A stretch of 64,000 nt of DNA from Artemia franciscana (taxonomy: Eukaryota; Arthropoda; Branchiopoda; Anostraca; Artemiidae), in the NCBI RefSeq assembly GCF_032884065.1, contig NC_088865.1, positions 48,867,631 to 48,931,630 of the forward strand, given 5' to 3'. Made by a program: the position numbers and the translations under genes. The notes below the pieces were generated by a model. The model saw only the letters and a list, made by a program, of their open reading frames with translations. It searched no databases and was not told the DNA's origin. This document shows, piece after piece, positions 2,638 through 58,370 of the stretch (position 1 is the stretch's first letter; every line of letters begins with the position of its first letter).

Positions 2638-4800
2638 CTACAAATGTAAAAATATTTAGTTAATTGCTTCCGTGTGCTGTCAAGAGAGTTTTGTAAATCA
2701 TTTAGAAGCCGCGACAGATTTTTCCGGCCTTGAGCTAAAAAAGAATGTTTCTTCAACTTTCAAACCCGGCCTTGGGTTTTCCCCTTAATAACCAAGTTTC
2801 TCCTTGGTTATGCAGCACGAATAAATGATTAACTAGACAACTCTTCTATTATACGGGGCTAGAGTCTAAGGTCCCAGTACCCAATTATTTGGTTTAGGAA
2901 GGGGGTCAGTGGCGTAACTCCGTGAGCTCTGCCAAGGTCTAATTGGGGACCTTGAGAAATCTGGGGAAGGTAAACAGGAAGGGTCTGTGAAAGCACAGGA
3001 TGGTTGGCCCCCAGCCCCCCCTTGCACTTCCTGACTGATGGGCCAAGAGACGGAGATCAACACCGCCGGTAGGGACTGTAAAGTCCATTGCCGTATTCTT
3101 TACCTTTTATAGTCTAAGGTCATAAGGGTTTCTGAGAAATATGAATTATTTATATTCAAAAAACATACTCTATTAACAAAATTGAAAGTACAATACATTG
3201 AATTTGGCAATGGGTTGATTAAATCAAAGGAAAATTAGTGAATCACAATTTTTTAGCATCGAATTTTACTTTTCTAGAAAAAAAACACAGTGATTTCTTT
3301 GTGTATGGATTCAGTTTCCCCAAAATTTGACAAAGATTTAGGTATATCATTTTGTATCCCATGATGGGCTTTTATATTGTTTTAATTATCAAAAAATATT
3401 CTTGTAGGAACAGGGATGAAAAAATGTTTTAATCACGTATTTTAGACGCGAGGTTTGAGAGATACTGCTTATAAAATATTTTTTATAAGTTATTTCCAAA
3501 AGTTTTTAATAAGATTAGTGTCCAGAAACTATTTTCTATTGTTTTCTATTATATGGGACTATGATCTATGGTTGTCATGATTTCTGATAGAAATTATTAT
3601 TCTTATTTAAAATGTATAATAGAAATAAATTAGAAATAAAAAATATAAAATCAAATAACCGGTCTAAGTAGAAATAACATTGAAATAAACATTAAGTTAA
3701 AAATAAAATCCATAAACATGGAAGAAACGTTCTAGATTGACAAAAAAAGAAAGTAACACGGAATAAAAAAGAAAGAGAAATTTGTAACGAGGAATTAAGA
3801 TGTATAGTCCAATTTGCACAATTCAAACACACGCCTTAAGTAAGAAAAATTACAGCAGAAATCTAGCTACATGGAAGCTTAAACCACCAAAATAAATAAT
3901 CAGGAACTAATAACCTAAAAAAATAAATACAATATTCTAGGAATTTCAAAAGTCATGCCTGGTCAACAATGATCTATTTTTAGGTAATTATTGGTAATTA
4001 AAAAAGCTAATATTGATCTATTTTTATATTTTATAAGTACATAAATTTGTATATATTATCTAAATTATTGGAAACAGTGAAATTAAATATCTAATATTCT
4101 ATTTTATACTTAATTGTAATTACTGGTTTCCTCAAAATATAATTTAATGACAGAAATCGAATAGAACGCTCATCAGCAGAAACGAATTAGGCAGGTAAAA
4201 AGCAATAACGTCCCCACAGCTCAGTTTTTCCAGAATGATCTTTCTATGTACTTGTAGAATCTTAATTTAAATTAATGTCATTGTCAATCAAGTCAAGATT
4301 AACGTCACGCCAGCCCTCAGCAATCTGGTAAATAGAAACATCCAAGTAAATAAATAGGTAAATAAATTTTACACAACCAGGTAAATAAATAGAAACGATA
4401 GAACTGGTAAATAAAAATGGTAAATATGGAACAAGAAACAAGTGCAGTTTCATTCATTTGACACATATTTGAATTGCAAATTCCAAAACAAACGTTATCA
4501 GAGACGGCAACTTCATGGGGTTCTGGTGATTTTCCCCTCCCCTCTACATTTAATTTTTTTTATTTCCATAGAAAAAATCGCAAACACGATAAAATTCCCC
4601 TCCCCCGCCATATCTTTTTGAAAATTACATTTACTTCCCCATCCCCCAGTTCTTATAAATCGGAGCGTTGCAAGCGGTAAATCTGAGCGTTACAAAGGAG
4701 AAAAAGTACAAATTCAACGTTATACAGCATGAAAACAAAGAAAGGCATCAGTACTTATTCCAAAGCATTTTGACAAACAAATAAATGGTCTGGTGTACAA

Positions 4801-5000
4801 ATTAAATAAAATAGTTTTTTCAACTGAAAGTAAGGAGCAACATAAAAATTGAAAATGAACAGAAATTATTACGTATATGAGGGGTTTTACCCCTTGTCAA
4901 TTCCTCGCTCTTATGCTAAAGTTCGAATTTTGTTCGAATTTTTTAAGAATGACCTCTGAATCACAAAGGCCGTTTAATTGACTCTTTTGAAAGTACTGAA
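4801..5000 (+). mobile_element. R1 repeat fragment, hairpin module, decayed
   Basis: This stretch matches the internal R1 module: ACTGAAAGTAAGGAGCAACA, a GAACAGAAATTATTACGTAT stretch, then a C/T-rich stem ending CTCGCTCTTATGCTAAAG, then the conserved spacer with GACCTCTGAATCACAAAGGC. The complementary right arm is missing or badly decayed. It is an isolated insertion in the cuticle intron. Confidence 0.7.
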
Positions 5001-8492: not shown

Positions 8493-8840
8493 CTAGAATC
8501 TAATCAAACAAGTAACCACACCCAAAGTCTTAATGTTAAGAACCCATCAAGAAAGCGGAACTATAGCAAAGGCAAGGACCTCTGAAACTGTTAATAGTCC
8601 GTTATTGATGACGTTATTTTTTTATAAAGAAGAATATTGCATAAAATTCTTGGGGCTCTATGATGCACTTGGGGGAAAATAAACTAAACCAATAGTATAG
8701 AAAATATACAAAGAAAATTTTTGTCTTCAAACGAAACTAAAAAACGACATAATACTTAGAAAGAACTGACATGAAGGGAGCTGACACCCCTAACTTTACC
8801 CTCTTCATTCCAAATTTTGACTAATGCTATTCTGAAAGCA

Positions 8841-10513
8841 TCAAACAGTTCGTGATAACGGACTGTAGTAAGGAGCGACCCGGCTCAATAGTAACCGAAA
8901 CTTTTAAAAATGGAATTTTAATATCAATAGTTACATCAAAAGGATTGTATTTTAATGCTGATTTTAAATATATAAGTTTCATCAAGTTAAGCTTTACCCA
9001 TCAAAAAATACGAGTCTGAGAAAATTTGCCTTACTTTAGAAAACAAGAAGAAACACCCCTTAAAAGTGCTAAAAATCTTAGCGGAAATCACACCATCAGA
9101 TTCAGCATATCAGAGAACCCTACAGTAGAAGTTTCAAGCTCTTATCCAAAAATATGGAATTTTGCATTTTTTGCCACAAGACAGATCATGGATGCGTGTT
9201 TATTTGTTTGTTTGTTTTTTCCCAGGGGTTATCATATCAACCCAGTGGTCCTAGAGTGTCACGAAAGGGCTCATTCTGACGGAAATTAAAAGTTCTAGTG
9301 CCCTTTTTAAATTACCGAAAAATTGAAAGGCACCTAGGCCCCCTCCCACGCTCATTTTTCCCAAAGTCACTGGATCAAAATTTTGAGATAGCCATTTTAT
9401 TCAGCATATTCAAAAACCAAATAACTATGTATTTGGGGACGACTTACTCCCCCACAGTTCCCGTGGGAGGCGCTGCAAGTTACAAACTTTGACCAGTGTT
9501 TACATATGGTAATGGTTATTGGGAAGTGTACAGACGTTTTCAGGGGGATTTTTTTGGTTGGGGGGAGGGGTTGAGGGGAGGGGGTTTAGTGGGGGAAATT
9601 TCCATGGAAGAATCTGTCATAGGGGAAGAGAATTTCCATGAAAGGAGCGCAAGATTTTCTAGCATTAAAAAAAATGAAAAATAAATATGAAAAAGTTTTT
9701 TCAACTAAAAGTAAGGAGCAGCATTAATACTTAAAACGAACCAATATTATTACGCATATGAGGGGCTCATCTCCTCCTAATACCTTGATCTTTACGCTAA
9801 TGTATTTTTAGTAATTTCAACTATTTATTCTACGGACTTTGTGATTCGGGGGTCATTCTTAAGGAATTGGGACAAAATTTAAGCTTTAGTGTAAAAAGCG
9901 AGGTATTGAAGAGGGGGTGAACCCCCCCCCCATATACGTAGTAAAAACATACGCATATAGAATGTCGTTACGCGAGTTAATTCGTAAGTTAAGTATATTT
10001 TTACTAATAAAAACGTTCGTAAAAAATCAAAGTTCTGGTTGCCTTTTTAAATAACCAAGAAATTGGAGGGTAACTAGGCCTATTCTCGCTCTTTTTTCTC
10101 AAAATCGTCCGATCAAAACCATTTAGCCATTTAGCCAAAAAAAAAAAAAATCATATGCAAATTTCGTTTTAATTATTCATGTGAGGAGAGCCAAAATCAA
10201 AACATGGATTAATTTAAAAACGTTCAGAAAATAATAAAATAACAAGTTTTTTAAACTGAAAGTAAGGAGCGATATTAAAACTTAAAAACGAACAGAAATC
10301 ACTCCGTTTATGAAAGTTGCTGTTCCCTCCTCAACGCCCCCTCTTTGCGCTAAAGTTTTTAATGTTTTAAAAAGTAGAGTTGAGAGAAAGAGTCAAACTT
10401 TAGCGTAAAGAGCGAGGCGTTGAAGAGGGAACAGTCCCTTTCATAAACGTTGTAATTTCTGTTCGTTTTTAAGTTTTAATATCGCTCCTTACTTTCAGTT
10501 TAAAAAACTTGTT
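8841..10513 (+). mobile_element. R1 element, near full length
   Basis: The copy starts with the R1 terminus (TCAAACAGTTCGTGATAACG, micro-palindrome 8846-8865) followed by TAGTAAGGAGCGACC. It passes through the shared internal region, an inner hairpin module with stems near 9770-9800 and 9890-9930, and ends in the terminal fold-back hairpin at 10242-10513. Length is about 1.67 kb. ORFs inside (9026-9289, 9298-9492, 9496-9684) recur as decayed frames in other copies and show no protein family. No transposase was found, so it is non-autonomous or of unknown type. Confidence 0.8.
10242..10513. repeat. R1 terminal fold-back hairpin (copy H1)
   Basis: Left arm: AACTGAAAGTAAGGAGCGAT, then GAACAGAAATCACTCCGTTT, then a C-rich core up to CTTTGCGCTAAAG. 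Right arm: CTTTAGCGTAAAGAGCGAGG back to ATCGCTCCTTACTTTCAGTT. Arms are about 110 nt with an A/T-rich loop of about 45 nt. The core is less perfectly paired than in H3 and H4. Confidence 0.85.
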
Positions 10514-11079
<566 letters not shown>

Positions 11080-13235: not shown

Positions 13236-13740
13236 TTACCACTTAGTGCATAAGGGAATAAAGTCTCAGACAGATAAACTCATGAGAATGAAGCTTGCAA
13301 ATAATCGTCTATAACAAACATTCATTTTGTATTGCTGCATATAATTAGAGAAAAAATATTATATATAATCGTATTAAAAAAAAAAAACTGCGCCATAAAA
13401 CAAGCATAGGGCTCTGAAACTTGAAGGTTATCGACATAGCTATTTGATTAATATCAATTGTTTTTCTACAAAATAATTGTTGTTTGAAACTCAAAGGAAG
13501 AATTGGCACTTTTTTAGGGTTCACAAAAATGTAGGGAGACAAGGATTTTTTTTCTATTTTTAAAGTTGAAAATACAAAAAGAAAAATATTTAGCAAATTT
13601 ACCTAAAATAAGACGTAGTGGCGACTTCATTGCTAGGAAAAATTCTCAGCGAAACTATCCAAGTAATGGGGGAAGAGTTAATGATGGAAATACCTACCCT
13701 TCCCCCAAAAAAATTGGTGGCATTGGCTCAGTTTTTCAAA
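13236..13740. other. AT-rich spacer between R1 copies
   Basis: No gene seen. The minus ORF at 13345-13596 and plus ORF at 13566-13820 have no recognisable features; the latter runs into R1 sequence. Confidence 0.4.
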
Positions 13741-14276: not shown

Positions 14277-14578
14277 TAATTACATAAAAAAAACTAGTTT
14301 TTCTAACTGAAAGTAAGGAGCGACATTAAAACTTAAAACGAACAAAAATTACTCCGTATATGAAATGGGCTGTCCCCTCCGCAATCCCTCGCTCTTTACG
14401 ATAAAGTTGGACTTTTTGCCACAATTCTACTTTTTAAAACAATTAAAAGCTTTAGCGTAAAGAGCGAGGAATTGCGGAGGGGACAACCCATTTCATATAC
14501 GGAGTAATTTCTGCTCGTTTTAAGTTTTAATGTCGCTCCTTACTTTCAGTTAGAAAAACTAGTTTTTTTTATGTAATT
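14277..14578. repeat. R1 terminal fold-back hairpin (copy H2)
   Basis: A near-perfect palindrome from ATTACATAAAAAAAACTAG to CTAGTTTTTTTTATGTAAT. Each arm is about 125 nt. The core is of the TGTCCCCTCCGCAATC type, and CTCGCTCTTTACG faces CGTAAAGAGCGAG across a loop of about 50 nt. Confidence 0.9.
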
Positions 14579-15960
14579 TCTGAAAGTTTTTGAATTAATG
14601 CATGTTTGATTTTGGCTCTCCACACATAAATTATGTGTACATTTTAATTCCTTTTTTGGCTAAATGGCTTTCTCTTAGTTCTGATCAGACGATTTTGAGA
14701 AATAAGGTATGGGGAAGGAGGCCTAGTTGCCATGCAATTTTTCGGTTACTCAAAAAGGCAACTATAATTCTTTTATTAGTAAAAAATATACGTAACTTAA
14801 GAATTAACTTACGTAACAAACTTTTATATTCTTAAATTTTTATTATGTATATGAGGGGGTTTGTACCCTCGTTAATACCTCGCTCTTTACACTAAATCGT
14901 AAGTTTTGTGCCGATTCTTTAAGAATGACCCCTGAATCAGAAAGGCCGTAGAATAAATAGTTGAAATTACTAAAAATACTATAGCATAAAGCGCGAGGTA
15001 TTTATCTCCTCCTGAATACCTCGCTCTTTATGCTAAAGTATTTTTAGAACCCCTCATATGCGTAATAATCTCTGTTAAGTTTCAATGCTACTCCTTGCTT
15101 TCAATGGAAAAAACTTTTCCATGTTTATTTTTTCATTGTTTTTTTTTATAGTAATTTTAGAAAATCCTGCGCCCTTTTCATTGAATTTCTGTTCCCCCAT
15201 GACATATTTCTCCAGGGAAAGATCCTCCCACATAGCCCCCTCTCCTCAACCCCACCCCCAAAACAAAAAAAAATCCCCTGAAAACGACTGTACACTTCCC
15301 AATAACCATTATTATATTTAAACACTGGTCGAAGTTTGTAACTTGCAGCCCCTCCCTCAGGGACTGTGGGGGAGTAAGTCATTCCCAAAGACATAGTTAT
15401 TATGGTTTTTGACTATGCGGAACAAAATGGCTATCTCAAAATTTTGATCTGTTGACTTTGGAGAAAAATGAGCGTGGGAGGGGGCCTAGGTGCCCTCCAA
15501 TTTTTTTGGTCACTTAAAAAGGGCACTAGAACTTTTTATTTCCGTTAGAATGAGCCCTCTTGCAACATTCTAGGATCACTTGGTCGACACGATGACCCCT
15601 GGGGAAAAGAAAAAAAACAAAACAAATAAACACGCAGCCGTGATTTGTCTTCTGGCAAAAAATACGAAATTCCATATTTTTATAGATAGGAGTTTGAAAA
15701 TTTTGCTATAGGGTTCTCTGATACGCCGAATGTGATGGTGTGACTTTCGTTAAGCTTGTAAGACTCTTAGGGGGTGTTTTCCCCTATTTTCTAAAATAAG
15801 ACAAATTTTCTCAGGCTCGTAACTTTTGATGACAAAGACCAATTTTGATGAAACTTATATATTTTGATGTATATTTTAGCATCAAAATTCTATTATTTAG
15901 AGTTTCGTTTACTATTGAGCCGGGTCGCTCCTTACGACAGTTCGTTACCACGAACTGTTT
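14277..15960 (-). mobile_element. R1 element, near full length, minus orientation
   Basis: Read on the minus strand it starts at the terminus (micro-palindrome 15938-15957, CAGTTCGTTACCACGAACTG on plus) and runs through GTAAGGAGCGACCCGG-type sequence and the middle region. It includes the inner hairpin module (stems near 14850-14890 and 15000-15060) and finishes in the fold-back at 14277-14578. Length about 1.68 kb, comparable to the 8841-10513 copy. No transposase. Confidence 0.8.
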
Positions 15961-16289: not shown

Positions 16290-16768
16290 ATTTGTTCTGC
16301 GCCTTGCGCCCTTTTCATTGAATTTTTCTTCCCCCATGACATATTTCTCCAAGGAAAGATCCTCCCACATAGCCCCCTCCCCTCAACCCTACCCCCAAAA
16401 CCAAAAAAAAATCCCCCTGAAAACGTCTGTACACTTCCCAATAACCATTATTATATGTAAACACTGGTCGAAGTTTGTAACTTGCAGCCCCTCCCCCAGG
16501 GACTGTGGGGGAGTAAGTCATCCCCAAAGACATAGTTATCATGATTTTCAACTATGCTGAATAAAATGGCTATCTCAAAATTTTGATCCGTTGACTTTGG
16601 GAAAAAAATGAGTGTGGGAGGGGGCCTAGATGCCCTCTAATTTTTTTGGTCACTTAAAAAGGGCACTAGAACTTTTCATTTCCATTAGAATGAGCCCTCT
16701 TGCGACATTCTAGGACCACTCGGTCAATACGATGACCCCTGGGGAAAAGAAAAAAAATAAAAATAATC
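16290..16768 (-). mobile_element. R1 internal fragment, reverse orientation
   Basis: This spans the middle of R1 on the minus strand, from GCGCCCTTTTCATTGAATTT to the internal oligo-T tract (AAAAGAAAAAAAATAAAAAT on plus). There it is abruptly joined to a plus-oriented terminus at 16768. No terminus of its own. Confidence 0.7.
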
Positions 16769-17136
16769 AAACAGTTCGTGGTAACGAACTGTAGTAAGGA
16801 GCGACCCGGCTCAATAGTAACCAAAACTCTAAAAAATTGAATTTTGATATCAATAGCTACATCAAAAGAATCGCATTTTAATGCTGATTTTAAATATATA
16901 AGTTTTAACAAGTTTAGTGTTACCCATCAAAAGTTACGAGCCTGAGAAAATTTGCCTTATTTAGGAAAATAGGGGGAAACACCCCCTAAAAGTCGTAGGA
17001 TCTTAACGAAAATGACACCATCAGATTCAGCGTATCAGAGAACCCTACTGTAGAAGTTTCAAGCTCTTATCTACAAAAATGTGGAATTTTCTATTTTTTG
17101 CCAAAAGAAAAATCACGGGTGCGTATTTATTTGTTT

Positions 17137-17168
<32 letters not shown>

Positions 17169-17620
17169 CCCCAGGGGTCATCGTATCGACCAAGTGGTCC
17201 TAGAATGTTGCAAGAGGGCTCACTCTAACGGAAATGAAAAGTTCTAGTGCCCTTTTTAAGTGACCAAAAAAATTGGAGGGCATCTAGGCCCCCTCCCACG
17301 CTCATTTTTTCCCAAAGTCAACGGATCAAAATTTTGAGATAGCCATTTTGTTCAACATAGTCGAAAACCATAAAAACTATGTCTTTGGGGATGACTTACT
17401 CCCCCACAATCCCTGGGGGAGGGGCTGCAAGTTACAAACTTTGACCAGTGTTTACATATAGTAATGGTTATTGGGAAGTGTACAGACGTTTTCAGGGGGA
17501 TTTTATTTTGCTTGGGGGTGGTGCTGAGGAGAGGGGGCTATGTTGGAGGATCTTTCCTTGGAGGAATCTGTCATGGGGAAAGAAAAATTCAATGAAAAGG
17601 GCGCAGGATTCTCAAGCATC
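16768..17620 (+). mobile_element. R1 element, 5' part, plus orientation
   Basis: Terminus at 16768-16825 with micro-palindrome 16772-16791, then AGTAAGGAGCGACCCGGCTC. It runs through the long T tract (about 17138-17168) to GGCGCAGGATTCTCAAGC. At that point a second R1 terminus starts, so the downstream half is replaced by a nested copy. Confidence 0.78.
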
Positions 17621-19248
17621 AAACAGTTCGTGGTAACGAACTGTAGTAAGGAGCGACCCGGCTCAATAGTAACCAAAACTCTAAAAAATGGAATTTTGAT
17701 ACCAATAGCTACATCAAAAGAATCGCATTTTAATGCTGGTTTTAAATATATAAGTTTCATCAAGTTTAGTCTTACCCATCAAAAGTTACGAGCCTGAGAA
17801 AATTTGCGAAAAGTTTCGAGCTCCTATCTACAAAAATGTGGAATTTTGCATTTTTTGCCAGAAGGCAGATCACGGATGCGTGTTTATTTGTTTTTTTGTT
17901 TTTTTGTTTTTTTGTTGTTTTTTTTTCCCCAGGGGTGATCGTATCGACCCAGTTGTCCTAGAATGTTGCAAGAGGGCTCATTCTAACGGAAATGAAAAGT
18001 TCTAGTGCCCTTTTTAAGTGACCAAAAAAATTGGAGGGCACCTAGGCCCCCTCCCACGCTAATTATTTTCCCAAAGTCAACGGATCAAAATTCTGAGATA
18101 GCCATTTTATTCAGCGTAGTCAAAAAACCTTATAACTATGTCTTTGGGGACGACTTACTCCCCCACAGTCCCCGTGGGAGGGGCAACAAGTTACAAACTT
18201 TGACCTGTGCTTACATATAGTAATGGTTATTGGGAAGTATACAGGCGTTTTCAGGAGGATTTTTTTGGTTTGGGGGAGGGGTTGAGAAGAGGGGGATATG
18301 CTGGGGGAACTTTCCTTCGAGAATTTGTAATGGGAGAAGAAAATTTCCATGAAGGGAGAGCAGGATTTACTAGCATTATTAAAAAAAAAACAATTAAAAA
18401 ATAAAAGTGAAAAAGCTTTTTCAGCTGGAAGTAAGGAACAGCAATAAAACTTAAAACAAACAGAAATTATTACCCATATGAGGGGCTCACCTCCTTCTAA
18501 TACCTCGCTCTTTACGCTAAAGTATTTTCGGTAATTTCAACTACTTATTCTACGGCTTTTGTGATTCAGGGGGTCATTCTTAATGAATTGGGATAAAATT
18601 TAAGCTTTCGTGTAAAGAGCGAGGTACTGACGATGGGGCGAATCCCCTCATATATGTAATAAAAACATGAGAATACAAAAGTTCTTTACGTAAGCTAATT
18701 TATAAGTTACGTAAATCTTTTACCAATAAAAAGATTCGTAAAAAATTAAAAGTTCTAGTTGCCTTTTTAATTAACCAAAAAATCGGGGGGCAACTAGGCT
18801 TCGTCCCCCGCTCTTTTTTTCTCAAAATCATTCGATCAAAATTATGAGAAAGCCATTGAGCCCAAAAAAAAATATGCAAATTTCGTTTTGATCATTCCTC
18901 TGCGGAGAGCCAAAATCAAAACATGCATTGATTCAAAAACGTTCAGAAATTAAATAAAAAAAACAAGTTTTTTCAACTGAAAGTAAGGAGTGACATCAAA
19001 ACTTAAAACGCACAGAAATTACTTCGTATATGAAAGAGGCTGCTTCCTCATCAACGCCCCGCTCTTTACGCTAAAGTTTTTTACTGTTTTAGAAAGAAGA
19101 ATTGAGAGAAAGAGTCAAACTTTAGCGTAAAGAGCGGGGCGTTGATGAGGAAGCAGCCTCTTTCATATACGAAGTAATTTCTGTGCGTTTTAAGTTTTGA
19201 TGTCACTCCTTACTTTCAGTTGAAAAAACTTGTTTTTTTTATTTAATT
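17620..19248 (+). mobile_element. R1 element nested in the previous copy
   Basis: Terminus with micro-palindrome 17624-17643. A deletion near 17810 (GAGAAAATTTGCGAAAAGTT) removes roughly 170 bp present in other copies. The middle region and inner hairpin module (about 18470-18660) follow, and the copy ends with hairpin H3. Confidence 0.8.
18948..19248. repeat. R1 terminal fold-back hairpin (copy H3)
   Basis: The arms are essentially perfect complements and share variants seen in no other copy: GTGACATCAAAACTTAAAAC, CGCACAGAAATTACTTCG and the core GCTTCCTCATCAACGCCCCG. Each variant appears as its exact complement in the right arm. The stem is about 125 nt per arm. Confidence 0.92.
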
Positions 19249-19855
19249 ACTATAAGAAAACAATGAAAAATAAACATGAAAACGTTTTTTCAAATGAAAG
19301 GAAGAAGTAGCATTGAAACTTAAAACGAACAGAGATTATTCCGCATATGAGGGGTTCTAAAAATACTTTAGCATAAAGAGTGAGGTATTTAGGAGGAGAT
19401 AAATACCTTGCTCTTTATGCTAAAGTATTTTTAGTAATTTAAACTATTTATTCTACGGCCTTTCTGATTCAGGGGTCATTGTTAAAGAATTGGGACAAAA
19501 CTTACGATTTAGTGTAAAGAGCGAGGTATTAACGAGGGTACAAACCCCCTCGTATACATATTAAAAATATAAGGTTATGAAAGTTTGTTACGTAAGTTAA
19601 TTGTTAAGTTACGTATATTTTTTACTAATAAAAACGTTCGTTAAATATTAAAAGTTCTAGTTGCCTTTTTAAGTAACCGAAAAATTGGAGGGCAACTAGG
19701 CCTCCTTCTCCACCCCTTATTTCTCAAAATCGTCTGATCAAAACTAAGAGAAAGCCATTTAGCAAAGAAAAAAGAATTATTATACAAATTTCATTTTAAT
19801 AATTTATGTGCGGAGAGCCAAAACCAAACATGCATTAATTCAAAAACGTTCAGAA
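19249..19855 (+). mobile_element. R1 partial copy, inner hairpin module and pre-hairpin flank
   Basis: Starts inside R1 at the region reading AAAACAATGAAAAATAAACA. It carries the inner hairpin (CATATGAGGGGTTC, TTTAGCATAAAGAGTGAGGT, GCTCTTTATGCTAAAGTA), then the CTCAAAATCGTCTGATCAAA flank leading into H4. Confidence 0.7.
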
Positions 19856-20157
19856 ATTAAATAAAAAAAAAATAATTTTTTTAGCTGAAAGTAAGGAGCG
19901 ACATTAAAACTTAAAACGAACAGAAATTACTCCGTATATGAAATGAGTTGTCCCCTCCGCAATCCCTCGCTCTTTACGCTAAAGTTTGACTCTTTGCCAC
20001 AATTCTACTTTTTAAAAAAAATTAAAAGCTTTAGCGTAAAGAGCGAGGGATTGCGGAGGGGACAACTCATTTCATATACGGAGTAATTTCTGTTCGTTTT
20101 AAGTTTTAATGTCGCTCCTTACTTTCAGCTAAAAAAATTATTTTTTTTTTATTTAAT
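19856..20157. repeat. R1 terminal fold-back hairpin (copy H4)
   Basis: Arms pair almost perfectly. The core variant GAGTTGTCCCCTCCGCAATC and its exact complement face each other. The outer stem AGCTAAAAAAATTATTTTTT is also private to this copy and matched on both sides. Confidence 0.92.
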
Positions 20158-20620
20158 AATAAATAAACACGCACCCGTGATTTGTCCTCTGGCAAAAAAT
20201 ACAAAATTCCACATTTTAGTAGATAGGAGCTTGAAACTTCTACAATAGGGTTCTCTGATACGCTGAATCTGATGGTGTGATTTTCGTTAAGATCCTACGA
20301 CTTTTATGGGGTGTGTTTCCCCCTATTTGACTAAATAAGGCAAATTTTCTCAGGCTCGTAACTTTTGATGGGTAAGATTAAACTTGATGAAACTTGAATA
20401 TTTAAAATCAACTTTAAAATGCGATTCTTTTGATGTAGCTATTTATATCAAAATTCAATTTTTTAGAGTTTTGGTTACTATTGAGCCGGATCGCTCCTTA
20501 CTACAGTTCGTTACCACGAACTGTTTGACTATTGGTATCAAAATTCCATTTTTTAGAGTTTCGGTTACTATTGAGCCGGGTCGCTCCTTACTACAGTTCG
20601 TTACCACGAACTGTTTGATA
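20158..20620 (-). mobile_element. Two R1 terminal fragments in reverse orientation
   Basis: 20158-20524 runs from the internal region to a terminus (micro-palindrome 20504-20523). It is followed at once by a 90-bp piece, 20525-20614, made only of the last part of R1 with its own terminus (20594-20613). The two termini thus stand about 90 bp apart in the same direction. Confidence 0.75.
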
Positions 20621-21205
20621 AGTTACATTAAGTTTAGACTTACCCATCAAAAGTTACAAGCCTGAGAAAATTTGCCTTATTTTAGAAAATAGGGAAACAT
20701 CCCTTAAAAGTCATAGAACCTAAACGAAAATCCCACCATTGGAGTGTCACTAGGCCTACTCCCTCGCTCCTTTTTTCCCAAAATCGTCCGACCAAAACTA
20801 TGAGAAAGCCATTTAACCATAAAAATAAATTAATATGCAAATTTCGTTTTAATTATTATCCATGTGCGGAGAGCCAAAATCAACACATGCATTAAATCAA
20901 AAACGTTCAGAAATTAAATATAAAAAAGTTTAAAGTTTTTTTTAAGGAGCGATATTAAAAATTAAAACGAACAGAAATTACTCCATATATGAAAGAGGCT
21001 GTTCCCTCCTCAACGCCCCGCTCTTTACGCTAAATTTTTTTACTATTTTAAAAAGTAGAGTTGAGAGAAAGAGTCAAACTTTAGCGTAAAGAGCAAGACG
21101 TTGAGGAGGGAACAGCCCCTTTCATATACAGAGTAATTTCTGTTCGTTTTAAGTTTTAACATCGCTCCTTACTTTCAGTTAAAAAAACTTATTTTTTTAT
21201 TTAAT
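20621..21205 (+). mobile_element. R1 fragment with internal deletion and hairpin H5
   Basis: From TAAGTTACATTAAGTTTAGA, the sequence jumps at about 20740 from the CCCACCAT region to the pre-hairpin flank (AAAATCGTCCGACCAAAACT). It ends in hairpin 20912-21205 with core GTTCCCTCCTCAACGCCCCG. Confidence 0.72.
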
Positions 21206-21767
21206 TATGGTTTAAAATGATGCTGGGAATTTAAATTTCTTCTAGAAAAGGCAGCAATTATTGGACCAACTGTTTGATACATTCTTCCCTGATTAACAAA
21301 AAAAAAATGAAAAACAAACAAACATGTATCCATTGCCAAATATTTTCATGCTACCCACTTTTGACGGGAAACCATAATTTTAATGAACTTTAAAACCTTT
21401 GACTCAACATAATAACTTGTGTCAGCAATTTTAAAAAATTTTTAATTTTTTCTACTGTTTCAATCGCTATTAACAAGAGTTGCTCTTTACTGAATGTCCA
21501 CAAACATTAACGATTTGATAACCTTCGTTGAACTTTCCTCGAGATATCAAAAATAAAAATAATTTAAAGTCGTCTCAACGTGGCATAACCGGAGAATAGA
21601 AGGAGTTCTGAGGCTCATGAATGTGAGGCTCATTAAGCTCACGGATGGGACGTTGGGCCTATTTTATACCCCTTGACTTATTCTTTCACATTTCAAAATA
21701 GTTAGAGCAAAAATATTTTGAACAGTATGAGTTTAGTCTCTGAATTTTATTAAATAAAAAAAAACGA
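21206..21767. other. Spacer, nothing recognised
   Basis: AT-rich DNA with no coding frame or known repeat. A GATGGGACGTTGGGCC stretch near 21645 has no identifiable source. Confidence 0.4.
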
Positions 21768-23114: not shown

Positions 23115-24605
23115 CAAACAGTTCGTGATAACGAACTGTAGTAAGGAGCGACCCGGCCCAATAGTGACCAAAACTCTAAAAAATAGAATTTTATAACCAA
23201 TAGCTGCATCAAAAAAATTGTATTTTAATGCTGATTTAAATATATAAGTTTCATTAAGTTTAGTCTTACCCATCAAAATTTACAAGCCTGAGAAAATTTG
23301 CCTTATTTTAGAAAATAGGGGAAACAACCCCCTAAAAGTCATAGAATCTTAACGAAAATCAAACTATCAGATTCAGCGTATCAGAGAACCGTATTGTAGA
23401 AATTTCAAGCTCCTATCTACAAAAATGTGGAATTCTGTATTTTTTGCCAGAAGGCAGATCACCGATGCGTGTTTATTTGTTGTTTTTTTTCCCCCAAGGG
23501 TGATCGTATCGACCCAGTGGTCCTAGAATCTTGTGAGAGGGCTCATTCTAACGGAAATGGAAAGTTCTAATGCCCTTTTTAAGTGACCAAAAAAATTGGA
23601 GGGCACCTTCCACGCTAATTATTTTCCCAAAATCACCGGATCAAAATTTTGAGATAGCCATTTTATTCAACGTAGTCGAAACCTTATGACTATGTCTTTG
23701 GGGACGACTTACTCCCCAACAGTCCCCGTGGGAGGGGCTACAAGTTACAAACTTTGATCAGTGCTTACATATAGTAATGGTTATTTGGAAGTGTACAGAC
23801 GTTTTCAGGGGGATTTTTTGGTATGGGGGGGGGGGGGTTGAGAAGAGGGGGACATGTTTGGAAACTTTCCTTGGAGGAATTTATTATGAAGGAAGAAAAT
23901 TTCCATTAAGGGAGCGCAGAAAAAAAAATGAAAAAATAAATATGAAAAAGTTTTTTCAACTGAAAGTAAGGAGCAGAATTAAAACTTAATACGAACAAAA
24001 ATTATTACGCATATGATGGGATTACCTCCTCCCAATACCTCGCTCTTTACGCTAAAGTATTTTTAGTAATTTCAACTATTTATTCCACGGCATTTGTGAT
24101 TCAGGGGCCATTCTTAAGAAATTGGGACAAAATTTAAGCTTTAATGCAAAGAGCGAGGTACTGACGAGGGGGTGAACCCCCTCATATACATAATAAAAAC
24201 ATGAGAATACAGAAGTTTGTTACGTAAGCTAATTTATAAGTTACGTATATCTTTTACTAATAAAAATATTCTTAAAAAATTAAAAGTTCTAGTTACCTTT
24301 CTAAGTAACAAAAAAATCGAAGGGCAACTAGGCCTCCTCACCCGCTCCTTTTTTCTCAAAATCATTCGATCAAAACTATGAGAAGTCGATTTAGCCAGAA
24401 AAATAAATATGCATATTTCGTTTTAATTATTCATCTGCGGAGAGCCAAAATCAAAACATGCATTGATTCAAAAATGTTCAGAAATTAAATTAAAAAAACA
24501 AGTTTTTTAACGGAAAGTAAGGAGCGACATTAAAACTTAAAACGAACAGAAATTACTTGGTATGTGAAAGGGGCTGCTTCCTCATCAAAGCCCCGCTCTT
24601 TACGC
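23115..24605 (+). mobile_element. R1 element inserted in the LINE
   Basis: Terminus TCAAACAGTTCGTGATAACG at 23115 (micro-palindrome 23119-23138), middle region, inner hairpin module (about 23955-24205), pre-hairpin flank, then only the left arm of the terminal hairpin (about 24495-24605), ending at GCTCTTTACGCTA. LINE-like coding resumes directly after. Length 1.49 kb. Confidence 0.8.
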
Positions 24606-26775
24606 TATCTCTATCGTTTTTAGAGCAGAAGGAATACAAACAGTCACTTCGAAGTAGGAAGAGAGAACAAGATAAAGTCAGAAACTTGGAAATTGAGAAA
24701 CATTTTGTATTAAAGGAACAGAAAAAAATTCTGGCAACTAGTACGAGGTTCTATTAATCCTTCTACTACAGAGCAAATAGTTGGGACTGATACCTGGCCC
24801 AAATACCTTGAATCCCTGGATAACTCAAAGGATGGTGCACTGGAGGATTTATCACAGACTTTAAGCCAACAGGTGTGCTACCCACTGAGAGAGGTTGATT
24901 ACAAACTTATCTCACCGTTTATACATGAGGAGATCGGTAAAGCCCTGGAGTCTATGGAGAGGGGATATGCACCGGGAGCATTTTTGAAGTGGGGAAAAAC
25001 AAATTTTTCTGCAATTTTGGTTAGTTTATTTTCAGCTTTGGTAAGTTCGTGTAAGTGGCCTGAAGAGTCGGGTTTGTCAGTTACGATACTATTATTTAAG
25101 AAGGGGGATAGGTCTCATCATAATAATTATAAAGGAATTCATTTAGGGAATAGTTTACCGAATCTTTTTTGTAAGGTGATAGACTTTGGACTATGGAGGT
25201 GGATAGAGAATAGGGATGTTTTGGATAAGGGCCAGACGGGTTTTAGAGAAGATCTTGGGACGACTGATGACATATTTAGTCTGCAGGCTTTAATTAATAC
25301 ATATGCTAGTGCTAAAAAAGAAAGGTTATATAAGGCATTTATAGATATTAAAGGAACATATGATAATGTTTGTAGGTTTTTATTAATGGTAAAATTTGTT
25401 TGAGATAGGTCTCCCGATCTCATTTGTGCTAGTTTTAGTTCAAATGTATAGATTTACTAAAGTAGTTGTGAGAGTTGGCAGGCGAGTTTAAAGGATAATG
25501 AGATGATATAAAGGTGTTAAACAGGAATGCACATTGTCTCCTAAATTATTCGCCCTATTCATAAATTCTGTAGTGGTGTTTTGAAAAAAAAAGGAGGCGC
25601 CTACGGTGAGTCTAGATATTGTATCCATTTGCACGATGTTGTTCGCAGATGATACTGTTTTGGTTGCCGATTCACAAAGGAACCTTCAGAAGTTACTTGA
25701 TATTTTAGGCGATTATTTGGATAGGAGAAAGCTAGAACTTAATTTGGATAAAACCTTAATGTTAGTTTTCGCTAAATGTGATAGACTTGAAGAGGATGTT
25801 AAACTTAGTTTTAAGGGTAGAAGGGTTAGATTAGTGGAGGAATGGTCATATTTAGATTTTAAGTTTAAGGCGAGAGGAAATTTATTTAGAAGTCATATAG
25901 AAAATAGGATCAAAAAAGGTAAGGTTACATGATATAACATGCTATTAAGAAGTCACCTTAGGGATATTAAAAAGATCCATGTAATTTAAGAGATTTTATG
26001 GGCCAGAATTTTAGGTGTGATGCACTATGGATCTGAGATTTGAGGGTATGCAAAGGGAGATTGGCAAGAAACAGAGCATTTAGGACATTATAAGAGGTGG
26101 CTAGGGATAAGTAAGCTTAGAAGTTTAGTAGTAAGCTAAGTTTACTAGTAAGCTAAATAGTTTAGTAGTTAGTGGTGATTTAGTTTTTTTTTTCTTTAAG
26201 AAGTCGTAGGCTGATTAATATGGTTAGGCTTTTGGAGAAAAATTTAATGATGCCAAGGATGCGGGTGATGAAAGCGGCTTATTTAGAAATGTTGAAGGGC
26301 AAATCTGGTAGGGGGTGGGCATACCAAATTAAGAATGTACTCGATCAGTGTGGACTAAGCCACATGTGGGGGGATGGCTTAGGGCTCTTGGATATGGGGG
26401 TCAAGAAAGGGGATTAGTTGAAAGGATCTTGTAGGACCAAGAAACACATGCATGGTAAGCCCAGCGTTCGCTTTCGAATTCACTGGGTCTTTATTGTGTG
26501 TCGAAGGAGATTTGGGGTGAAGTTTTATTTTGTAAGCTGAGTTTAAATAAAAATGCAATAAAGTTATCAATAGAAATGAGGGCTGACAGTTTGCCACTTG
26601 GCCAAAGAAGAAAGTTTATCAAAGGCCGGTCCTTACTATTGTCATATGTGTGGAAGTTTATATGAGAACGTATATCACTTGATGCGTGAGTGTGAGGAGC
26701 TGAGTGATTGGAGACTTGAAGTGTTTTGTAGGGGGATTATGATTTTGAGAGGTTGGTGAGAAAGTGTGCGGATCA
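24606..26775 (+). pseudogene. LINE reverse transcriptase and C-terminal zinc knuckle, broken
   Basis: Fragments in successive frames give a LINE RT in order. A linker is rich in Arg/Lys (24610-24755). RT motif 1-2 reads LLFKKGDRSHHNNYKGIHLG (about 25090-25150) and GQTGFREDLGTTDD follows (25230-25270). Motif A region LYKAFIDIKGTYDNV (25327-25371) carries the first Asp. Motif B is GVKQECTLSPKLFALFINS (25513-25570), and the catalytic FADD box is MLFADDTVLVAD (about 25636-25670). The thumb region includes RRKLELNLDKT. A C-terminal knuckle reads CHMCGSLYENVYHLMREC (26640-26693; C-x2-C-x8-H-x4-C). Several stops and frameshifts interrupt it. APE endonuclease plus this C-terminal CCHC places it in the broad jockey/CR1/I-like group. 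Confidence 0.88.
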
Positions 26776-27747: not shown

Positions 27748-28698
27748 AAAAGGAGGGCTTTTCTTCCTCGACGCCCGCTCTTTACGCTAAAGTTTTTTAT
27801 TGTTTTAAAAAGCAGAGTTGCGAGAAAGAATCAAACTTTAGCGCAAGGAACGGGGTGTCGAGGACGAAAAGCCCCTTTCATATACGGTGTAATTTCTGTT
27901 CGTTTTAAGTTCTAATGTCGCTCCTTACTTTCATTTCAAAAAACTTGTTTTTTTATTTAATTTCTGAAAGTTTTTGAATTAATGCATGTCTGATTTTGGC
28001 TCTCCGTACATAAATTATTAAAATGAAATTTGCATATTAATTCTTTTTTTTTGGCTAAATGGCTTTCTCTTAGTTTTGATCAGACGATTTTGAGAAATAA
28101 GGGGTGGGGAAGGAGGCCTAGTTGCCCTCCAATTTTTCGGTTACTTAAAAAGGCAACTAGAACTTTTAATTTTTAACGAACGTTTTTATTAATAAAAAAT
28201 ATACGTAACTTAAGAAATAACTTACGTAACAAACTTTTATATTCTTATATTTTTGATTATATATACGAGGGGGTTTGTCCCCTCGTTAATACCTCGCTCT
28301 TCGCACTAAATCTTAAGTTGTGTCCCAATTCTCTAAGAATGATCTCTGAATTAGAAAGGCCGTAGAATAAATAGTTGAAATTGCTAAAAATAATTTAGCA
28401 TAAAGAGCGAAGTATTTATCTCCTCCTAAATACCTCGCTCTTTATGCTAAAGTATTTTTAGAACCCCTCATATGCGTAATAATCTCTGTTCGTTTTAAGT
28501 TTTAATGCTTCTCCTTACTTTCAATTGAAAAAACTTTTTCATGTTTATATTTTCATTGTTTTTTTTTAATAGTAATGCTAGAAAATCCTGCACCCTTTTC
28601 ATTGAATTTCTCTTCCCCCATGAAATATTCCTCCAAGGAAAGATCCTCCCATATAGCACCCTCCCCTGAACCCCACACCCAAACAAAAAAATCCCCTG
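27748..28698 (-). mobile_element. R1 fragment, reverse orientation, with left-truncated hairpin H6
   Basis: Hairpin 27748-27962 has core TTTTCTTCCTCGACGCCCG, and its outer left arm is lost. The pre-hairpin flank, inner hairpin (about 28250-28480) and middle region follow to CCCAAACAAAAAAATCCCCT. There the orientation flips to plus. Confidence 0.75.
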
Positions 28699-29877
28699 AA
28701 AAGGAGGCCACCTAGGCCCCCCCCACGCTCGTTTTTTCCCCAAAGTCACTGGATCAAAATTCTGAGATAGCTATTTTATTCACGATAGTCGAAAAACCTA
28801 ACAACTATGTCTTTAGGAACGACTCACTCCCCCGCAGTCCCCGTGGGAGGGGCTGCAAGTTACAAACTTTGACCTGTGTTTACATAATGGTTACTGGGAA
28901 GTGTACAGGCATTTTCAGGGGGATTTTTTTTGTTTATCTGGGTGAGTTGAGGGGGGGGGTTACGTGGGAGGATATTTCCATGGAGAAACTTCTCATGGGG
29001 GAAGAGAATTTCAATGAAGGGGGTGCAGGATTTTCTACCATTATTTGAAAAACAATGAAAAAATAAATATGAAAAGTTTTTTCTACTGAAAGTAAGGAGC
29101 AGCATTAAAACTTAAAAACCAACAAAAATTATTACGCATATGAGGGGTTTACCTCCTCGATATACCTCACTCTTCACGCTAAAGTATTTTTAGTACTTTC
29201 AACTATTTATTCTACGGCCTTTGTGATTCAGAGGGCATTCATAAGGAATTGGGACAAAATTTAAGCTTTAATGCAAAGAGCGAGGTATCGACGAGGGTTG
29301 AACCCCCTCATATACGCAATAAAAACATATGAATATAGAAGTTCATTACGTAAGTTAATTCGTAAGTTATGTATATTTTTTACTAGTGGAAACGTTTGTA
29401 AAAAATTAAAAGTTCTAGTTGCTTTTTTAAGTGATCAAAAAATTGGAGGGCAACTAGGCCTCCTCCCTCGCTCATTTTTCTCAAAATCTTCCTATTAATT
29501 ACAATTAATTAATATGCAAATTAAATTTTAATTATTTATGTGCGGAGAGCCAAGATCAAAACATTCATTAATTCAAAAACGTCCAGAAATTAAATTAAAA
29601 AATTTTTTTAATGAAAGTAAGGAGCAACATTAATACTTAAAACGAACAGAAATTACTCTGTATATGGAAGGGGATTTTCCTCCTCAACGCCCCGTTCTTT
29701 ATGCTAAAGTTTCTTACTGTTTCACAAATAGAGTTAAGAGAAAGAGTCAAACTTTGGCTTAAAGAGCGGGGCGTTGAGGAGGAAAAGCCTCTTTCATATA
29801 CGGAGTAATTTCTGTTCGTTTTAAGTTTTAATATTGCTCCTTAATTTCATTTAAAAAAGCTTGTTTTTTTATTTAAT
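28699..29877 (+). mobile_element. R1 fragment, plus orientation, joined head-on to the previous piece, with hairpin H7
   Basis: Begins inside R1 at GGAGGCCACCTAGGCCC and runs through the middle and inner hairpin module (about 29095-29320) to hairpin 29589-29877 (core TTTTCCTCCTCAACGCCCCG). With the preceding fragment it forms a large inverted pair around 28698. Confidence 0.78.
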
Positions 29878-30351: not shown

Positions 30352-30650
30352 AATTAAATAAAAAAAACAAGTTTTTTGAAATGAAAGTAAGGAGCGACAT
30401 TAAAACTTAAAACGAACAGAAATTACTCCGTATATGAAAGGGGCTTTTCCTCCTCGACACCCCGCTCTTTACGCTAAAGTTTTTTATTGTTTTAAAAAGT
30501 AGAGTTGCGAGAAAGAATCAAACTTTAGCGCAAGGAGCGGGGTGTCGGGGAGGAAAAGCTCCTTTCATATATGGAGTAATTTCTGTTCGTTTCAAGTTCT
30601 AATGTCGCTCCTTACTTTCATTTCAAAAAACTTGTTTTTTTAATTTAATT
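30352..30650. repeat. R1 terminal fold-back hairpin (copy H8)
   Basis: Core TTTTCCTCCTCGACACCCCG faces CGGGGTGTCGGGGAGGAAAA. The CGACACC variant is matched in both arms. Outer stem AACAAGTTTTTTGAAATGAA faces TTCATTTCAAAAAACTTGTT, again private and paired. Confidence 0.9.
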
Positions 30651-32768
30651 TCTGAAAGTTTTTGAATTAATGCATGTCTGATTTTGGCTCTCCGTACATA
30701 AATTATTAAAATGAAATTTGCATAGTAATTCTTTTTTTTTTGGCTAAATGGCTTTCTCTTAGTTTTGATCAGACGATTTTGAGAAATAAGGGGTGGGGAA
30801 GGAGGCCTAGTTGCCCTCCAATTTTTCGGTTACTTAAAAAGGCAACTAGATCTTTTAATTTTTAACGAACGTTTTTATTAGTAAAAAATATACGTTACTT
30901 AAGAATTAACTTACGTAACAAACTTTTATATTCTTATATTTTTGATTATATATATGAGGGGGTTGGTCCCCTCGTTAATACCTCGCTCTTCACACTAAAT
31001 CTTGTTTCGTCCCAATTCTTTAAGAATGACCCCTGAATCAGAGAGGCCGTAGAATAAATAGTTGAAATTACTTAAAATTTTTTTAGCATAAAGAGCGAAG
31101 TATTTATCTCCTCCTAAATACCTTGTCCTTTATGCTAAAGTATTTTTAGAACCCCTCATATGCGTAATAATCTCTGTTCGTTTTAAGTTTTAATACTTCT
31201 CCTTACTTTCAATTGAAAAAAGTTTTTCATGTCTATATTTTCAATGTTTTTTTTTGTTTTTTTTTAATAGTAATGCTAGAAAATCCTGCGCCCTTTTCAT
31301 TGAATTTCTCTTCCCCCATGAAATATTCCTCCAAGGAAAAGATTCTCCCATATAGCCCCCTCCCCTGAACCCCATGCCCAAACCAAAAAAATTCCCCTGA
31401 TAACGTCGGTACACTTCCCAATAACCATTACTGTATGTAAACATTGGTCAAAGTTTGTAACTTGCAGCCCCTCCCCCAGGGACTGAGGGGGGGGGTAAGT
31501 CATCCCCAAAGACATAGTTATTATGGTTTTCGACTATGCGGAACAAATTAGCTATCTCAAAATTTTGATCCGTTGACTTTGGGAAAAAATGAGCGTGGGA
31601 GGGGGCCTAGGTGCCCTCCAATTTTTTGGTCACTTGAAAAGGGCACTAGAACTTTTCATTTCCGTTAGAATGAGCCCTCTTGCAACACTCTAGGACCACT
31701 TGGTCGATACGATGACCCCTGCGAAAAAAAAAAAAACATAACAAACAAACAAACAAATAAACACGCACCCGTGATTTGTCTTCTGGCAAAAAATACGAAA
31801 TCCCACATTTTTGTGGATTGGACCTTGAAATTTATTCTATAGGGTTCTTTGATACGCTGAATGCGATGGTGTGATTTTCGTTAAGATCCTATTACTTTTA
31901 GGGGGTGTTTCCCCCTATTTTCCGAAATAAGGCACATTTTCTCAGGCTCGTAACTTTTGACGACAAAGACTAAATTTGATGAAACTTAAATATTTAAAAT
32001 CAGCATAAAAATCCAATTCTTTTGATATATCTTTTAGCATCAAAATTTGGCATCAAAAACGTCTGTACACTTCCCAATAACCATTACTGTATGTAAACAC
32101 TGGTCAAAGTTTGTAACTTGCAGCCCCTCCCCCAGGGATCATGGGGGGGGGTAAGTCATTGCTAAAGACATAGTTATTATGGTTTTCGACTATGCGGAAC
32201 AAAATGGCTATCTCAAAACTTTGATCCGTCGACTTTGGGGAAAAATGAGCGTGGGAGGGGGCCCAGGTGGCCTCCAATTTTTTAGTCACTTAAAAAGGGC
32301 ACTAGAACTTTTCATTTCCGTTAGAATGAGACCACTTGCAACATTCTAGGACCAGTTGGTCGATACGATTACCCCTGGGGAAAAGAAAAAAACAAAAAAA
32401 AAAACAAATAAAAACTCACCCGTGATTTGTCTTCTGGCAAAAAATACGAAATTCCACATTTTTGTAGATAGGAGCTTGAAATTTTGCTATGGGGTTCTCT
32501 GATACGCCGAATGCGATGGTGTGATTTTCGTTAAGATTCTATGACTTTTAGGGGGTGTTTCCGCCTATTTTCCAAAATAAGGCCAATTTTCTCAGGCTCG
32601 TAACTTTTGATGACATAGGCTAAATTTGATCACACTTATATATTTAGAATCAGCATGGAAATCCGATCCTTTTGATGTATCCTTTAGCATCAAAATTCCG
32701 TTTTTTAGAGTTTCGTTTACTATTGAGCCGGGTCGCTCTTTACTACAGTTCGTTACCACGAACTGTTT
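30352..32768 (-). mobile_element. R1 element with internal duplication, minus orientation
   Basis: Minus-strand terminus at 32768 (micro-palindrome 32746-32765) and hairpin H8 at 30352-30650. The middle section occurs twice: ACGTCGGTACACTTCCCAATAACC near 31404 and ACGTCTGTACACTTCCCAAT at 32059. Each copy is followed by the same downstream order, so about 650 bp is tandemly duplicated. Total length is 2.4 kb. Confidence 0.78.
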
Positions 32769-33008: not shown

Positions 33009-33300
33009 AACACTTAAACGCTTATAACACTTATAGGCGCTTCTTATTTTTTAAACACTTATAGGCGCTTCTTATTTTTTAAACACTTATAGGCGCTTCT
33101 TATTTTTTAAACACTTATAGGCGCTTCTTATTTTTTAAACACTTATAGGCACTTCTTATTTTTTAAACACTTATAGGTGCTTCTTATTTTTTAAACACTT
33201 ATAGGCGCTTCTTATTTTTTAAACACTTACAGGCGCTTCTTATTTTTTAAACACTTATAGGCGCTTCTTATTTTTTAAACACTTATAGGCGCTTCTTATT
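33009..33300. repeat. 28-bp minisatellite, about 10 copies
   Basis: Unit AAACACTTATAGGCGC followed by TTCTTATTTTTT. Copies are nearly identical, with single changes (GGCACT, GGTGCT, TTACAGG) in the middle of the array. It stands in gene-less DNA between the R1 cluster and the AT-rich region. Confidence 0.95.
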
Positions 33301-37592: not shown

Positions 37593-38078
37593 CAAACAGT
37601 TCGTGGTAACGAACTGTAGTAAGGAGCGACCCGGCTCAATAGTAACCAAAATTCTATAAAAATGGAATTTTTATACCAATAGTTACATCAAAAGAATCGG
37701 ATTTTAATGCTGATTTTAAATATATAAATTTCATATGAAATTGGGTTGTCCCCTCCGCAATCCCTCGCTCTTTACGCTAAAGCTTTTAATTGTTTTAAAA
37801 AGTAGAATTGTAGCAAAGAGTCAAACTTTAGCGTAAAGAGCGAGGGATTGCGGAGGGGACAACCCATTTCATATACGGAGTAATTTCTGTTCGTTTAAAG
37901 CTTTTAATTGTTTTAAAAAATAGAATTGTGGCAAAGAGTCAAACTTTAGCGTAAAGAGCGAGGGATTGCGGAGGGGACAACCCATTTCATATACGGAGTA
38001 ATTTCTGTTCGTTTTAAGTTTTAATGTCGCTCCTTACTTTCAGCTAAAAAAAATTAAGTTTTTTTTTTTTATTTAATC
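37593..38078 (+). mobile_element. Solo R1: terminus fused directly to a three-arm hairpin (H9)
   Basis: Terminus with micro-palindrome 37597-37616, about 140 bp of terminal sequence, then a direct jump (about 37733) into the terminal hairpin. The element is reduced to its two ends. The hairpin loop plus right arm is duplicated: TCAAACTTTAGCGTAAAGAG then CGAGGGATTGCGGAGGGGAC occur at about 37821-37862 and again at about 37940-37981. Core type is TCCCCTCCGCAATCC. Confidence 0.85.
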
Positions 38079-57140: not shown

Positions 57141-57904
57141 ATGTCACTTGGTAAATACCAATTCCATAAAAAGGACAAAAACGATTTTGGGAATTCTTTT
57201 TAGTTCGGCACCTCATTGAAGAAACACAAGTCTCATTTCTCATTTTAGCTCTTTTTTCACATTCAAGCTATTCGCAAGCTTTTTTATTCAAAACGCAAAA
57301 TGTGTTAGGTACAATTACTTTACATATAATGAAGTATGAATTGTTTTCTAACTTCAAACTGTCAAAATACTTTACCTCCACCACCACCCCACCCCCCTAA
57401 GGTGCAGCTAAGGTCCCAAATTATATATTTTTCATCCATTCTGTCACATGTCTTTGTCTTGTGTCATGCTAAGCTGAAAGAAATTAAAGAAGAAACCGGT
57501 TTGCTCTCGAGTTTTACAAAGCGTAAAAGCGTGAACTTGAGTGTTTGTCATATTATACACAAGTACCCCTACAGCTTCTTACAAATACGTTTTCATTTTC
57601 ATTTTAAAAATCGAAAAAAAATGACCTCCCTCCTATATTTTGATAAATAACTGCTAGTTTGTATCTTCATTTTTTTTTATTATTGTGCCACCTCTACATT
57701 TTCTTGAATTAATGCCACTATAATGAACTGATCTCATTCGCAACAGTTCTAAGAATCTGAGGTGTGTTAAGGAAACTAATACTAAATTAAGTATTAAAGT
57801 ACATCGAGCCCATATCTGTTATTTTTTAAGTATTAATGTTCCAACTTAGTCGAATACTAATTTTTTTATTACCTAAGTTGCACCTAATGCTATAACTGAT
57901 TAAA

Positions 57905-58370
57905 TTAAAAAAACAAACAAGTTTTTCAACTGAAAGTTAGGAGCAACATTAAAACTTAAAACGAACAGAAATTATTACGTAAATAACAATTTTGTCCCCT
58001 CGTCAATATCTCGCTCTTTAAGCTAAGGTTCGATTTTTGTTCCAATTCTTCAAGAATTACCCCTGAATCACAAAGGCCATTTAATTAGAATAAATAGCTC
58101 TTTTGAAAGTACAAAAAAAAACTTTAGCATAAAGAGCGGGGTATTGACGAGCGGGCGAAGCCCCTCATATACGTAATAAATTCCGTTCATTTTAAGTTTT
58201 AATGTTACTCCTTACTCATTTGAAAAAAATTGTTTTCTTTATTTATTTTCTTATCGCTTTTTTAAATAATGCTGGGAAATCCGGTGTCCTCTTCATGGAA
58301 AATTCTCTTCCCCCATGAAAAATTCCTCCATGGAAAGATCCTCCCACGTAACCCTCTCTTAAGAGGCTCT
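57905..58370 (+). mobile_element. R1 fragment, inner-type hairpin
   Basis: Left arm TTTTTCAACTGAAAGTTAGG with ATCTCGCTCTTTAAGCTAAG; right arm AAACTTTAGCATAAAGAGCG and TTAATGTTACTCCTTACTCA. The spacer includes ACCCCTGAATCACAAAGGCC. After 58260 the sequence matches the R1 middle (TTCTCTTCCCCCATGAAAAA, GGAAAGATCCTCCCACGTAA). Moderately diverged. Confidence 0.75.

Follow-up and report, generated by a model that had tools for sequence, protein, structure and literature searches.

The window analysed here is a stretch of 64,000 nucleotides of Artemia franciscana DNA (positions 48867631-48931630) within a genome of 1,270,528,402 bases. It is eukaryotic-looking and poor in open reading frames, eight of which reach at least 120 amino acids; five window ORFs gave no Pfam family, and a PDB search with one window ORF gave no match. 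The hairpins considered here form the 3' end of a non-coding, dispersed repeat of ~1.7 kb, pieces of which occupy 16,667 bases of the window. The same 5' start sequence is present in nine family pieces, and nine pieces terminate where the right arm ends on its outer side, with differing sequence beyond. In H3 and H4, arms of ~132 nt enclose a loop of 37-38 nt (Table 1).

Table 1. Hairpins, flanks and related units of the repeat family in the window (positions are counted from the first nucleotide of the window)
Feature	Position	Strand	Remark
H3 5' flank (element spacer)	18641..18944	+	serves as lineage marker
H3 left arm	18945..19079	+	equal to right arm at 134 of 135 positions
H3 loop	19080..19116	+	forward relative to 5' flank
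H3 right arm	19117..19251	+	outer end is the element 3' end
H4 5' flank	19543..19851	+	
H4 left arm	19852..19987	+	equal to right arm at 131 of 132 aligned positions
H4 loop	19988..20025	+	inverted relative to 5' flank, along with the tip C/T difference
H4 right arm	20026..20157	+	element 3' end
Full-length reference copy	8837..10528	+	hairpin A at 10229-10527
Hairpin B	14278..14581	-	core type as H4, loop the opposite way
Hairpin C	20909..21206	+	arms 17% apart; not homogenised
Hairpin D	29585..29877	+	
Hairpin E	30352..30653	-	H8 of the initial annotation; loop inverted; B/H4-type flank, H3/D-type stem
Hairpin K	27761..27965	-	sister of E; right arm truncated to 35 nt
Hairpin J	37734..38074	+	118-bp tandem duplication (loop and right arm); left arm is tip only
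Copy N	24175..24607	+	only H3-like flank and left arm
Long-loop (type II) hairpin F	57902..58251	-	arms 20% apart
Type II unit	19254..19545	+	mini-hairpin with 33-nt arms, from inverted duplication
Type II units with mini-hairpin	14860-15135, 19254-19545, 28275-28570, 30962-31255		

The family is dispersed through the 1.27-Gb genome, where exact 17-nt tips flanking a gap of 25-55 nt occur at 13,306 places, as against none for the reversed control; twenty evenly spaced 10-kb genome stretches contain six two-armed hairpins. Four exact patterns of the repeat gave no matches in viral contigs, plasmids likewise gave none, and an exact 20-base match in a bacterial contig (L001) is at about the chance level for 257 billion bases. 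No report of the repeat was found among the titles and abstract openings listed in searches of an open-access literature library.

The hairpin is normally terminal in the element. Flank sequence on one side is found in thousands of cases (single-pattern counts of up to 4,335 and 4,842), whereas hairpins with one exact flank sequence on both sides number 28 genome-wide. The latter may have arisen by fold-back copying that continued beyond the left arm.

Some other arrangements in the window may be recorded. At 16303-17623 and 20157-21206 family pieces lie head to head, with their order broken and almost nothing between them, an arrangement that repeated rearrangement or nested insertion would produce. 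Copy N ends at 24607, shortly before frames at 24714-25986 that by eye are LINE reverse transcriptase-like; the one open frame tested had no Pfam match. A tandem array at 33026-33300, with 9.8 copies of a 28-bp unit and 97% matches, is apparently unrelated to the hairpins.

The ends of the element recall known types of non-coding transposon, in part. TC is present at eight of the nine 5' starts, and a putative 13-bp subterminal inverted repeat, AGTAAGGAGCGAC, lies at nt 28-40 from the 5' end and 35-47 from the 3' end, with a score that 3 of 1000 shuffles also attain. Both arms of the hairpin are at the 3' end, the 5' end having only the 13-bp repeat in common with it; a MITE or foldback element, with terminal inverted repeats at both ends and a target-site duplication, is thus rejected. 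A canonical Helitron, with 5' TC and 3' CTRR, is likewise rejected owing to the 3' end, which is TTTAAT. Canonical Helitrons insert between A and T and leave no target-site duplication; by eye, A and J, two copies flanked by unique sequence at either end, show none. The likeness to DINE-1/HINE elements consists in the lack of coding capacity, the putative 13-bp subterminal inverted repeat, with a small inverted repeat near the 5' end, and the 3' palindrome; in HINEs the 3' palindrome is short (5-10 bp in those of mites), the target is TT and the subterminal repeat, of 12-15 bp, lies 2-4 nt from the 5' end (PMC4067079). By contrast, the palindrome here is ~300 bp long with an arm that reaches the terminus, the repeat lies 27 nt from the 5' end, and by eye A, rather than TT, precedes seven of the eight clear 5' ends, so that the element does not fit a HINE or non-autonomous Helentron with its short 3' palindrome. 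Given these differences in palindrome length, repeat distance and target, and the non-Helitron 3' end, the element is assigned to neither class, although it resembles both and may work like them.

Pairing between the arms of a hairpin

The initial annotation, made from the sequence alone, had reported variants in the left arms of H3 and H4 that recur as complements in the right arms. Both are indeed near-perfect hairpins, and the variants named are present in both arms. The same had been said of hairpin E, where CGACACCCC and TTGAAATGAA are common to both arms as stated, yet the stem has 8 mismatches in 131 positions.

Among the seven window copies with a full short-loop hairpin (F, G, K, J, M and N being left out of the permutation test), the distance between the two arms of a copy is 0.007-0.167, with a mean of 0.068, as compared with 0.133 for permuted partners, and of 5040 permutations only the true pairing gives so low a mean. 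Across 32 informative columns, own arms in these copies agree in 194 of 224 cases, versus 132.5 expected for mismatched partners. When the arms are placed on a tree, those of A, B, H3, H4 and D each join, and those of E join together with its sister K; the arms of C are not sisters. A tree with left arms grouping apart, which the annotation had named as the pattern contrary to its claim, is rejected for the seven window left arms (AU p 2.5e-33).

Beyond the window, none of 50,000 shuffles matches the observed pairing in 14 unselected copies (eight from the window and six from the twenty genome stretches), and none of 20,000 does so in a set of 30 copies from which J, being partial, was dropped; the 16 hairpins that were taken from 15 pattern loci were chosen for intact tips, which biases them to good pairing. 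At one core site, a C/A transversion, there are 3,785 A/A, 981 C/C and 64 mixed hairpins genome-wide, where independent arms at those frequencies would by simple arithmetic give ~1,600 mixed, these counts being of exact patterns, which miss decayed copies, and including a contribution from descent from matched sources. The coupling of the arms is in this sense confirmed, and is strong genome-wide.

The coupling is incomplete. Variants seen in only one of the seven window copies comprise 15 that are paired and 40 that are in a single arm; thus, the near-perfect hairpins are H3 and H4 only, and drift continues alongside copying. That arms are closer within a copy than between copies is correct on average and incorrect copy by copy, since for only 15 of 30 copies is the own partner the closest of all right arms; when arms are assigned optimally, 21 of the 30 copies have their own arms paired. 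Nor are the variants private to a copy, as had been proposed. They are subfamily marks, H3's arms being carried also by a copy elsewhere in the genome (L036), whose nearest arm is at a distance of 0.000 from an H3 arm. Much of the agreement between arms, as the 15 and 21 of 30 copies indicate, therefore reflects shared subfamily descent.

Inverted loops and exchanged stems

Six window hairpins (A, B, H3, C, D and J) have the loop in the forward orientation with respect to the 5' flank, and three (H4, E and K) have it inverted; an orientation for M presumes that its arm is a right arm. In B, J and H4, a C/T difference at the arm tip moves with the loop, staying on one particular side of it, so the overturned block includes part of the stem. 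Genome-wide, the tip C is on the GACTC side at 25 places and on the other side at 351 flank-anchored forward places, patterns of unequal strictness, the first requiring no flank and a longer stretch of loop.

Of 27 oriented copies (two without a recognised flank and one with flanks on both sides having been dropped), ten have an inverted loop. At least three changes of orientation are needed on the hairpin tree and four on the flank tree, of which only one is forced when strongly supported branches of the flank tree are used alone. Both orientations are common in two loop types when one flank sequence is required: GAGAGAAAGAGTC is forward at 4,842 and inverted at 579 genome places, and GTGGCAAAGAGTC is forward at 896 (351 and 545 for two tip variants) and inverted at 4,335. 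Inversion also separates close relatives; two sampled copies, L022 and L031, have nearly equal arms and three differences in 94 aligned flank bases, together with opposite loops and a paired T/A change, a transversion.

Stems and flanks have also been recombined. At 8 of 8 diagnostic flank sites E and K are of the B/H4 type, and at 10 of 10 stem sites they are of the H3/D type, the groups having been picked after the distances were seen and two of the 20 sites, which lie in the loop, having been set aside because the loops are inverted. The pattern reflects one stem-flank exchange between lineages.

Copying, descent and selection on pairing

The probable explanation, in our view, is that the hairpin is a 3'-terminal palindrome of a non-autonomous element, the arms of which template each other in amplifying lineages and the loop of which flips. 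One arm would repeatedly act as template for the other along such lineages, either by gene conversion or by a template switch or fold-back priming event at the hairpin while the element replicates or transposes. A strand under synthesis or repair could, on meeting the hairpin, copy the opposite arm, and a new mutation would thereby become paired within the lineage; exchange across the stem would turn the loop over, and whole hairpins would be swapped between lineages. Copies no longer taking part would drift by unpaired mutations. The copying itself is seen along lineages. The molecular step is one that we infer, as is the stage at which it would act, which may be in source copies, during transposition or after insertion; because the hairpin is terminal, a step during transposition is an attractive possibility. 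Mismatches have no polarity within the stem of the kind that a fold-back primer would leave (pooled KS p 0.57), and in copy A alone is a clean tract longer than expected.

Evidence for copying comes from comparison of nearest copies, some of which are used several times. Copies at most 2% apart differ by 7 paired and 8 one-arm changes in seven comparisons, where ~0.04 paired changes are expected by chance. For copies at most 6% apart the numbers are 28 paired and 58 one-arm in 15 comparisons, with 0.56 paired expected, and for all 26 comparisons 65 paired and 244 one-arm, with 3.64 paired expected. Consistent with this, five derived changes relative to copy N are present in both arms of H3. 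On a flank tree of nine copies from the window, the terminal branches predict more arm mismatches than are seen in A, B, H3, H4 and D (five of seven); this is not so for C and E. The annotation had offered copying of the arms from each other as one of two explanations, and it is this one that the paired differences between near copies and the loop inversion support.

Not all hairpins of the family are maintained, and old copies decay. The long-loop (type II) hairpins F and G, with arms 20% and 31% apart, are not homogenised. Four type II units have a 34-nt inverted duplication, other units being in the state without it, which looks like the footprint of one dated template-switch-like event. 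Of 33 positions, the arms of the resulting mini-hairpins match at 31, 31, 31 and 25; by eye, every difference is unpaired, implying that old or short hairpins simply decay. For E and K, alignment reveals common left-arm variants that are missing from E's right arm, and hence there has been no copying there since E and K split.

It is conceivable, but in our judgement unlikely, that youth and subfamily descent are sufficient, i.e. that bursts from matched source copies, themselves only rarely matched anew, produced the agreement with no copying within copies. The recurrence of H3's arms in L036, the 15 of 30 copies in which the own partner is nearest, the unpaired drift of the mini-hairpins and the graded within-copy divergence, which spans 0 to 17% in those window and sampled short-loop copies whose flank was recognised, all accord with this proposal, and the near-perfect state of H3 and H4 may be due in part to youth, as the annotation had allowed. 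Youth, however, fails to account for paired differences between lineages. The sources would need to have been matched repeatedly, given that paired differences occur at 1-2% distance, including the L022/L031 transversion, and the loop flips and the E/K exchange require active recombination.

More doubtful still is a rolling-hairpin process, in which the terminal palindrome is copied and resolved during the life cycle of the element, with the arms being rebuilt and the loop flipped. In parvoviruses, the ends of the genome are palindromes that are copied and resolved by rolling-hairpin replication, with flip and flop outcomes. The position of the hairpin at the 3' end (28 hairpins flanked on two sides versus thousands on one) and the occurrence of both orientations in two loop types are as such a process would predict. 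Resolution in every cycle, however, should give near even orientations, whereas those observed are uneven and clustered by lineage (4,842:579 and 896:4,335), and swapping alone would leave the arms unmatched. Were it true, this would be a rolling-hairpin eukaryotic transposon whose dead copies, in their thousands, preserve flip and flop states as parvovirus ends do.

Copying between arms, our preferred explanation, and selection for an RNA or DNA stem, the other explanation that the annotation had offered, make different predictions for the mutations themselves. Copying of ordinary mutations predicts an equal spectrum for paired and one-arm changes; passage through G-U pairs predicts an excess of paired transitions. 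In 24 comparisons (with hairpin G, window_12917, and L019_7392 dropped), transitions and transversions number 34:21 among paired changes and 113:69 among one-arm changes. G-U and A-C mismatches are in a ratio of 17:16 in seven window copies and 74:66 in 30 copies (p 0.55). The window gave no Rfam match at the gathering score. Thus, although the predicted RNA stem of H3 is almost perfect (-230.8 kcal/mol, z -39.8), the fixation of mutations with compensating partners because pairing is needed is very improbable and is rejected, the lack of wobble bias, the equal spectrum, the inversion of loops, the decay of old copies and the absence of an Rfam family all being contrary to it.

The paired changes therefore imitate RNA evolution, and DNA copying between the arms fits them best. 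Paired substitutions are commonly accepted as proof of a functional RNA stem; that they are abundant here, with no sign of selection for pairing, means that covariation alone can mislead. The family provides thousands of replicate hairpins, in which the loops record orientation and the flanks record lineage, such that it is possible to measure how fast arms are copied, loops flip and copies decay.

Comparison with known systems

One close precedent concerns template switching. Monttinen and Loytynoja (2022) describe how, in short stems, template switching yields both copying of an arm and inversion of the loop (PMC8794818). The likeness to the present hairpins is in the simultaneous compensatory changes, the perfect stems made in one event and the loop inversion via copying of the opposite arm. 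The stems described there are, however, short ones of rRNA and miRNA that are under selection and in which loop inversions are rare, and the authors term their own evidence for stem maintenance circumstantial (PMC8794818). By contrast, the arms here are of ~130 nt in a non-coding repeat, with no sign of selection for pairing, and inversion is common.

Inverted repeats with coupled arms are also known at other scales. In the human Y chromosome palindrome P6, gene conversion between the arms keeps them alike and rare crossovers invert the centre, as outlined by Hallast et al. (2013; PMC3723533); P6 is a single locus with many-kilobase arms, unlike the ~130-nt arms and thousands of dispersed copies here. 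Perfect inverted repeats of up to 284 bp in the mitochondrial genomes of Nematomorpha have paired substitutions between individuals, for which template switching was proposed (PMC6649704). These lie in mitochondrial coding sequence, and the passages that treat them describe no loop inversion, whereas the present hairpins belong to a nuclear mobile element. In Caenorhabditis, inverted repeats were found to be conserved in structure above sequence, and active maintenance was proposed, according to the summary of that work (PMC1803023); they involve gene pairs and intergenic stretches, rather than a repeat family as here. Thus, the process is known in principle; what is unusual in the Artemia element is the scale, a setting that appears to be neutral and the frequency of loop inversion.
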